A stretch of DNA of 64,000 nt from NCBI GenBank assembly GCA_905116865.2, contig CAJHNH020008432.1:683901-747900 (forward strand). The letters are read 5' to 3'. The translations under genes were made by a program, and so were the position numbers. Under the pieces are notes generated by a model. That model was not told the origin of the DNA and did not search any database. It saw only the letters and a program-made list of their open reading frames with translations. The stretch's first letter is position 1. Each line of letters begins with the position of its first letter. The stretch is from Candidula unifasciata (taxonomy: Eukaryota > Mollusca > Gastropoda > Stylommatophora > Geomitridae). Of this stretch, positions 4,203 to 8,954 are shown piece by piece.

Positions 4203-7200
4203 ATGTCTACATTTGCTGAGTTTTTGGAGTTAGGTCGAAGTATAGGCCTAGAAAATGGACAACTCTTAGCTTTCGCCGAAGCCAGAATGAAAGAGTTGTC
4301 GGACAGAGATAACCAGTTACGCGATGAGAGAACAGCGGAACGCGCCTGGAAAAAAGAAATGGAGTTGGAGAAATTACGCATGGAAAAAGAAGCTGAGGCT
4401 GAGAAATTACGCTGGGAAAAAGAAGCTATGGCGGAAAGACTGCGTTTCGAAATGGAGACTAATTTGGAAAGGTTACGTTTGGAGAACGAATTAGAACTAG
4501 CGCGTATAGATAGAGACAAGGTTGTTGCTGTGTCAGATTCAGAGAGCCGTCGTCTTGTGTCTAGTAGCCGTTCGGGTTCCGAACAAGGGGCATGTGTCTA
4601 CATACCCAAATTACCGTTTCTTACACCTACAGAAGATCTTCATAATTTTTTGGATCGCTTCTCTTTAGCGATGAATACCGCTAAGATACCAGAGGAACAA
4701 TGGGTATCTCGTTTAAGGGATTTGCTAACGGGACCAGTTTTGAACACGTTCACGAACTTATCAGAAGACGAACGCGCGTCGTTCGAAATAGTCAAACAAA
4801 AACTGTTGGCGTCGAAGTGCATGACCGAAGAAGGTTACCGTGTGCAGTTTAAATCTGTTGTGCCATCCGTCGATGGAAGTTTCGCTGATTTTGTGGCCCG
4901 CGTTAGAACGTTGTTTACGCGTTGGGTGACATTGGCAGATGTTAAAAACTCTTATGATAAGCTGGCTGATCTCATTATTCGAGATAAAATTTTGTCTTCA
5001 TGTAGTTCGGAGATGTTCTCATTTTTTCAAGAAAGGAAACCGAAGTCAGTTGAGGAGATGACAACATTGGGAGAACAGTATGTCACTGCACATCCTGGTA
5101 AACCATTGCACAACCCCAGGTTCGAGGACATACTCCCAGCTGCATCCAGTATTAGGGTGCACCACAACGCCTCGTCAAATCGGCCCGGGTGGAACAAATG
5201 CCATAATAGGCAGGGGGGCTATCGCAGCCACAGCGAACAGAGACAACCACCCCAGAGAGATCAAACGTCCAAAAAGCAGGGTGAACATTATCAACCCCGT
5301 TCATCTGCTTGTTCAATCTGTCTTTCGTGGAGACACAAAAGTCCCGATTGTCCCCACAAGCGACACAGGAAAGATGATGACGATGGTCCATCTTCACGAG
5401 GTAGGTTTCAACGCAACACAGGTCCTATAAGGTGCTATGTATGCCGTGGTTTCCATAAACGTTCTGAGTGCCCAAGGGTTATGAACAGTCATGCTAATTC
5501 CGCGCAAACAGTAAACGCAGCGATGTCACAAAAAGTGACAAATTTAGCAGACGGTCAGGTTCGAATCCATCCAGAAATTGTTTACCCAGCGTTGTCAGCT
5601 GTACCACTGGAGGCTGGTTTGCCTTTGCATAATGGTTATGTTGGAAACATAAAATCTAAGGTATTACGCGACACGGGCGCCAATGTTATAGGAGTGGCTA
5701 GATACCTAATCCCCAAATCAGCATACTTAGGTCGGTATTGCAAGTGTCGTACTTTTGGTGGTCGTTTAGAAAGATTTCCTTTAGCAAAAGTCTATTTAAA
5801 TAACCCGTATTTTCAAGGGGTTGCCGAAGTGTGTGTTTTGGAGAGACCATCAGCAGACGTACTCCTTGGATCAGTTCCAGGAGCAAAGATGCCCTCGCGT
5901 GAGGAAATCGAACGCTGGTATAAAGAAAATGAGGGTGTGACTGAAGCTAATGCTGCAGTTACACGCGCTCAACAGAGAGTAAGTAACGAGGAAGCCACAC
6001 CTGCGTTACAGTCAGCTACTTCGAACGAAAACCAAATAGCTATCACATGTGGGATAGCTAGCGAAGAAGCAGTAAAGAATGAACCAGAACGACCAAAAGA
6101 GCCTGGAAACGAACCACACGCACCGAAAACAAACAGTTTTGCAATACAACAACGGGCGGATCCTACACTCACTAAATGCTTTTCTAGGGCAGAAGTAACC
6201 GGTGTTAGAACATGTAAGCAAGGTACATGGCATTTTTATGTGAAGAATGGAATTTTAATGAGATATTTTAAATCACCTGTTATGCAATGTAAACAATTAG
6301 TCGTTCCTTTATGTTATAGAACCGATGTTCTGAGAGTTGCACATGACACACCTTTTGCTGCACATTTAGGTATAGGTAAAACACAGAAAAGAGTTCTTGC
6401 ACAATTCTATTGGCCTGGTTGTTCCACAGATATTAGGAAATACTGTAGGTCATGTAAAGACTGTCAAATGATGGCGAGAAAGGATGCATCTCAGAAACCT
6501 CCTATTCAAAGGGTCTATCTTCCATGTCGTCCTTTCGAAAAAGTTGCTGTCGATCTTGTGGGTCCGTTACCGGTTGTTTCACAAAGAGGATTTAGATACA
6601 TTTTAACATTTGTAGACATGGCATCACGTTGGGTTGAAGCAGTACCGTTACGTCATATCACTACTGAGTCAGTAGCAGAAGCATTGATGCTTATATTCTC
6701 TAGAGTAGGCTTTCCTGAAACAATTCTGTCAGATCACGGATCACAATTTATTTCAGAAGCAATGCGCTCTTTTGACAAATTACTTGCCATCTCTCACGTT
6801 TTTTCTGCAAGATATCACCCACAATCAAATGGGCTAGTAGAAAATTTAAATGGGAAAATAAAAGCTATGCTAGCCAAGGTTACTAATCAATTTCCAGCAG
6901 ACTGGGACAAATACCTTCCTGCTGTTTTGTTCGCCTATCGTGAGGTGCCCCAGAGCAGTACAGGTTTCTCACCTTTCGAACTTATATATGGTGCCAATCC
7001 CAGAGGTCCACTGTCGCTGTTAAAGGACATATGGATCGGTAAAGGCGATCAAGAAGCGCCTCAAACATATATTAAATTCGTGACGGAGTTACGTAACAAG
7101 ATAATCACAGGTTGTCAAGTTGCACGGGACAACTTGGAAAATGCTGGTACTCATCAAAGAGAATACGTTAACCGTAACCGGAGACTAATCACTCTCCAGC

Positions 7201-8954: not shown

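Follow-up and report, generated by a model that had tools for sequence, protein, structure and literature searches.

The Gmr1-like clade of Ty3/gypsy retrotransposons is said to have been described by Goodwin and Poulter in 2002, Gmr1 itself reportedly coming from cod. In the accessible parts of the papers concerned, its members combine an integrase-reverse transcriptase (RT) order with a gypsy-type RT (PMC6238403, PMC8220671) and feature a SCAN-like region in Gag (PMC4592553). As far as the available texts go, crustacean elements of this type, GyRex4/5 and GyLiva4, were published in 2013 (PMC3587641), and the annelid family LGF3, from Lamellibrachia, was put in the Gmr1 clade by RH, RT and INT trees in 2021 (PMC8220671). 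The excerpts available of three further papers show Gmr1 named among the clades of several phyla, yet absent from the paper's own analysis, in another annelid study; about 200 Gmr1-like copies in the frog Silurana; and, in a 2018 mollusc survey, a single mention of Gmr1, as background only, next to six known gypsy clades (five in the abstract), Gmr1 not among them, and 16 MolGy clades. No report of Gmr1 in a mollusc was found in the literature searched, a collection of partly accessible texts with most subscription journals outside its scope.

In this work, we describe a complete LTR retrotransposon, found at positions 2882-9860 of the window, i.e. the whole stretch of 64,000 nucleotides that was analysed. 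We hold with high confidence that it is a complete, apparently recently inserted Ty3/gypsy element of a heterobranch gastropod, likely Gmr1-like and likely to follow the usual retrotransposon cycle despite its integrase-first order. Its features (position, strand, description) are the following:

2877..2881, no strand: target-site duplication AGAAC, left copy, flanking the 5' LTR
2882..3502, +: 5' LTR, 621 bp, TGTCGCG...GTATCA, 0/621 differences from the 3' LTR
3504..3521, +: presumed primer binding site, starting TGGGAGCCAGCC, so called from its position after the LTR
3683..3790, +: tandem repeat with a 36-bp unit, three copies, in the untranslated leader
4203..8954, +: single gag-pol open reading frame, 1,583 aa
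4830..5093, +: SCAN/capsid C-terminal-like domain of Gag (Pfam SCAN, 26.3 bits, cut-off 27, E 6.6e-6)
5310..5351, +: CCHC zinc knuckle, nucleocapsid type (motif)
5670..5681, +: retropepsin active site DTGA (motif)
6303..6473, +: integrase zinc-binding domain, H2C2 (Pfam PF17921, E 1.1e-18)
6528..6842, +: integrase catalytic core, rve at 6528-6821, DD35E ending at 6842 (Pfam PF00665, E 2e-16; motif)
7257..7331, +: integrase C-terminal GPY/F-like module, WQGPFKV... (motif)
7812..8480, +: Ty3/gypsy-type RT, YLDD at 8133 (Pfam RVT_1, E 3.2e-25; Ty3 RT, E 1.6e-74)
8481..8867, +: RNase H (Pfam PF17919 and PF17917; RT_RNaseH, E 1.6e-32)
9224..9239, +: polypurine tract GGGAGGGGGGAAAAGC before the 3' LTR
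9240..9860, +: 3' LTR, 621 bp, identical to the 5' LTR
9861..9865, no strand: target-site duplication AGAAC, right copy, flanking the 3' LTR

Paired LTRs, a target duplication and a polypurine tract, the hallmarks of an LTR retrotransposon, are all present: both 621-bp LTRs have TG...CA ends, they differ at no position, and AGAAC lies on either side. The gag-pol frame runs from the ATG at 4203 to the TGA at 8952-8954, 1,583 codons with no earlier stop; in the interval 2500-11000, sense-strand ORFs of at least 100 aa are limited to the one at 4185-8954 and a 116-aa one within it. Gene order, intact frame, identical LTRs and 5-bp duplication are read directly, and the last three bear out the original prediction of a complete and apparently young element, whose interval, 4203..8954, excluded both LTRs. 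The presumed primer binding site begins with TGG, and TGGGGGCCAGCC stands at this place in the three other copies, out of five compared, whose junction is readable; a tRNA match to the site at 3504 was not found. A search for an env frame, of the retrovirus/errantivirus kind, returned no ORF of at least 100 aa in the 285 bp between the pol stop and the 3' LTR. As to the surroundings, a 66-bp minisatellite (2443-2841) stops just short of the insertion site, and a truncated, older LTR-like fragment (10036-10290), which follows the element after about 175 bp, matches LTR bases 1-254 at about 86-90% in ungapped blocks.

The coding potential was evaluated by running Pfam on five separate pieces of the gag-pol frame, along which SCAN, Integrase_H2C2, rve, RVT_1 and RT_RNaseH follow in this order; with the motifs added, the single frame reads gag (SCAN/capsid-like, zinc knuckle), protease, integrase, RT, RNase H. 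Matches to rve (2e-16), RVT_1 (3.2e-25) and RT_RNaseH (1.6e-32) are far beyond chance, and no Pfam match was found in the protease piece. The frame at 4203-8954, DTGA at 5670 and YLDD at 8133, as first predicted, were all reproduced; the DDE stretch occupies 6552-6842, the RNase H motif TDAS lies at 8583, and the WQGPFKV... stretch at 7257..7331 is what we take to be the GPY/F motif. The solved structures nearest to the RT-RNase H piece are two Ty3 chains (4ol8, E 1.6e-74; 7q5b), with 8r0s ('enzymatic polyprotein') and retroviral RTs coming next; the integrase piece matches the PFV and Ty3 integrases. Pfam order and best structural match agree with the claim of a gypsy-type RT preceded by the integrase. 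A Ty1/copia identity was rejected, as RVT_1 and RT_RNaseH were the only matches of the RT region, with no copia RT Pfam match. Both marks of the Gmr1-like architecture, an integrase placed upstream and a gypsy-type RT/RNase H, are present, as had been proposed.

For the SCAN-like Gag region a five-helix capsid-type fold is predicted, structure matches not being decisive. This capsid region, a Gmr1-like trait, was counted as present, the window scoring 26.3 bits against a cut-off of 27; in sister pieces of the same genome, SCAN is above the Pfam cut-off in 5 out of 7 and below it (20.9) in the other two. Pfam SCAN is absent from P0051 and P0053, the two database proteins matching the Gag piece by BLAST. 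In the RT tree both fall on the integrase-first side, and an integrase could not be detected in the roughly 300 residues between their protease and RT, perhaps because of a gene-model splice.

The integrase-first order is a shared trait of the relatives of this element. A search with the RT-RNase H piece selected 577 database proteins, the best 120 of which were analysed: integrase and RT are both present in 36 of these 120, and all 36 are integrase-first by BLAST, the named ones being gastropods and one fish. A second search used the conventional RT of locus L023 from the same genome, and the best 120 of 6,361 proteins were retained. In the pooled set of 242 (240 database proteins listed plus 2 own translations), under a stricter filter of at least 40 aligned integrase residues, proteins with an RT nearer the window's are integrase-first in 33 cases out of 33, and those nearer the L023 type RT-first in 18 out of 18. 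RT type and domain order agree, that is, in all 51 proteins scored for both domains; at the same threshold, integrase was not detected in 191 of the 242. Among deposited proteins, those of Plakobranchus, Littorina and Nucella have the integrase first; Elysia proteins, with no visible integrase, join the same group in the RT tree.

Within the host genome (assembly of 1.34 Gb, 7,176 contigs), 20 loci were hand-picked across differing scores from at least 150 integrase matches, a non-random sample which gives no abundance. Sixteen of them, from several families, carry the integrase first, and all sixteen match the SCAN-like piece of the window; the remaining four are RT-first, none with such a match.

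Trees were built for both domains, without any named Gmr1 sequence. The RT tree contains 64 rows, 27 of them integrase-first, 13 RT-first, including Ty3, and 24 with order not seen; 46 rows were chosen from the 240 listed proteins, and four own loci with partial RT (L009, L010, L024 and L025) were omitted. A 99/97 branch parts integrase-first from RT-first rows, and for the 40 rows whose order is known one change suffices. In the integrase tree, made of 29 rows (21 integrase-first and 8 RT-first), the two orders split at 100/100. The order follows one lineage in both trees, and needs one change.

These results bear on the proposal that an ordinary gypsy element had its integrase and RT blocks swapped locally, by rearrangement or by an assembly error. 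Conventional RT-first elements do exist in the same genome, as the 4 out of 20 hand-picked loci testify, but the probability of such a swap is virtually nil: the integrase comes first in 16 of the 20 own loci, of several families, and in 36 of 36 two-domain database relatives among the matches listed, and one branch separates the two orders in RT and integrase trees alike. Since the order is common to independent genomes, a local swap is already refuted, and since RT type and order agree across database, own genome and both trees, the order cannot be put down to a local accident. The outcome named beforehand as fatal to the original prediction, placement in an ordinary gypsy clade with the order due to a local rearrangement, is seen neither in these loci, nor in the 36 listed relatives, nor in the trees.

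The element clusters with one fish protein that is integrase-first; the RT tree adds two fish proteins of unseen order. RT identity with the integrase-first fish protein P0120 is about 45%. On the integrase-first side, Acanthochromis (integrase-first) branches separately together with two other fish, Mugilogobius and Knipowitschia (order not seen), and two further rows; a 100/100 branch of the RT tree divides the fish from a group made up of the element's own row, gastropod rows and others. This last branch, and the depth and diversity of the families in the host genome, would suit an element of the same kind belonging to an integrase-first gypsy clade sister to the Gmr1 clade proper, a reading which overlaps ours and differs in label only. 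We regard it as rather unlikely, fish and gastropod integrase-first rows lying on one branch versus the RT-first ones (99/97 for RT, 100/100 for integrase). We keep to a Gmr1-like element: because the trees hold no named Gmr1 sequence, membership of the Gmr1 clade is only inferred, as likely, from architecture and from kinship to fish and other integrase-first elements.

Five other copies, selected for open frames of 1,584-1,591 aa, were compared with the element. In four of them the aligned LTR parts are identical within the copy, over 511, 351, 611 and 124 bases (partial alignments in three cases), while in the fifth 5 of 418 aligned LTR bases are mismatched, again in a partial alignment; both LTRs are whole only in C2366, one LTR being partial in the other four (three at a stretch end, one at an N run). 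From the LTRs of the window, C2366 departs by 19 mismatches and C860 by 24, counted along almost the full length, plus gaps. Identity within copies and difference between copies are expected from reverse transcription of each LTR pair off one template, and make an assembly collapse unlikely. Duplications of 5 bp are readable at three other copies, CCCCC (low-complexity) in C465, GCAGT in C2366 and TGATC in C5163.

The RT pieces of the five copies are nearly identical to that of the window, with 4-11 mismatches in 879 bases. Over the six copies, 16 codons vary, 10 of them synonymously only, with no stops, an observed synonymous excess summarised by a pooled dN/dS of about 0.16, from non-independent pairs and small counts. 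The exact 18-base junction of polypurine tract and LTR occurs 122 times in the assembly, a count which may take in sister families, versus 0 for the reversed control; the search for LTRs, in which 40 of 946 candidates were scored, produced 45 match rows (two being the window's own), all at least 96% identical.

So few mismatches (4-11 per 879 RT bases) might also be encountered in a dead or silenced relic family, owing its young look to gene conversion between LTRs or copies. We consider this quite improbable, given that target duplications of 5 bp flank this element and three other copies, that LTR parts agree within a copy but differ from one copy to another, and that synonymous change is in excess. 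Recent movement of the element is well supported by the identical LTRs, the 122 junction matches and the dN/dS of about 0.16, and the element is probably still able to copy itself. In two contigs, integrase matches occur in same-strand pairs, 6.4 kb apart in C44:73108-79796, where the junctions are also 6.4 kb apart, and 6.15 kb apart in C3399:657750-664196, which suggests tandem elements sharing an LTR.

In the cycle proposed for this element, the 5' LTR would start the RNA, the single frame would give one Gag-Pol polyprotein, and the SCAN/capsid-like Gag would assemble the particle. The protease would cut the integrase out before RT-RNase H; the cDNA would be tRNA-primed, and then inserted by the integrase via 5-bp staggered cuts. 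Known relatives release their domains by proteolysis: if this is so here, the domain order need not alter the biochemistry.

As for the host, it is a heterobranch gastropod. Its genome contains 62 matches to the beta-sandwich family of molluscan haemocyanins, mostly on two contigs, and one exon matches PDB haemocyanins. A serotonin (5-HT) receptor, read as one exon, is, among its named matches, 79% identical to Lymnaea, 76% to Physella and Aplysia, 75% to Candidula and 64% to Haliotis; its tree places it in a clade with Aplysia, Lymnaea, Candidula, Plakobranchus and Elysia, which we take to be heterobranchs, at 100/100, with a long-branch warning for the bivalve outgroup rows. The mollusc host that the original prediction had only supposed is thus confirmed. 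Haemocyanin domain exons form large clusters on contigs C640 and C5207; many lie about 10 kb from one another, and stops occur in some of the matches.

Elsewhere in the window, two telomere-like (TTAGGG-type) tandem arrays (10540-10663 and 10865-11030) lie in opposite orientation, and a 27-bp tandem repeat (13468-15098, about 60 copies, 95% match) causes a spurious 548-aa ORF. Related 45-bp tandem repeats within 28385-31941 flank a non-LTR-type RT ORF on the minus strand (29359-30561, RVT_1 E 6.5e-32), and a 784-bp CTT/GAA triplet tract (52196-52979) gives overlapping spurious ORFs (poly-Arg/Lys).

The element is not a new architecture, nor the first protostome case: it mainly adds gastropods to the Gmr1-like hosts, since vertebrates, crustaceans and an annelid are already on record for the group. 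Of the original prediction of a member outside the initial host range, the mollusc host stands, but not the novelty, crustaceans (PMC3587641) and an annelid (PMC8220671) coming earlier in the accessible parts of those papers. The interest resides in a complete, apparently young gastropod copy and in the chance to test a single origin of the order, which can be done in one host because a complete integrase-first element and RT-first gypsy relatives share its genome. The element also suggests that SCAN-like Gag extends to gastropods, which bears on the origin of the vertebrate SCAN domain. A tentative broader reading, to which we give slightly less than even weight, sees in integrase-first SCAN-type gypsy elements an ancient animal lineage, with one origin before the protostome/deuterostome split, which would make up a large, still-mobile part of gastropod genomes left un-named in the 2018 mollusc survey, as far as its text is accessible, and perhaps hidden among its unnamed MolGy clades. 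If true, this would make the capsid fold that vertebrates later took over as their SCAN domain older than the vertebrates themselves.

Compared with known systems, the element shares with the Ty1/copia superfamily an integrase placed before the RT, but its RT and RNase H are of the gypsy type instead. RT-RNase H and integrase are homologous to those of yeast Ty3 (PDB 4ol8, 7q5b), where, unlike here, the order is conventional, RT (586-1009) preceding integrase (1087-1419) in chain 7q5b. GyRex4/5 and GyLiva4 are, like the element described here, Gmr1-like elements of protostomes; GyRex4 and GyRex5 are RT/RH or INT fragments, in the available text (PMC3587641), whereas the window holds a complete copy with LTRs. 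LGF3, a Gmr1-clade member by its published trees, is likewise a counterpart, in an annelid rather than a gastropod. With the Gmr1-like clade, Gmr1 being compared by description only, this gastropod element has in common the integrase-RT order, the gypsy-type RT and the SCAN-like Gag region.
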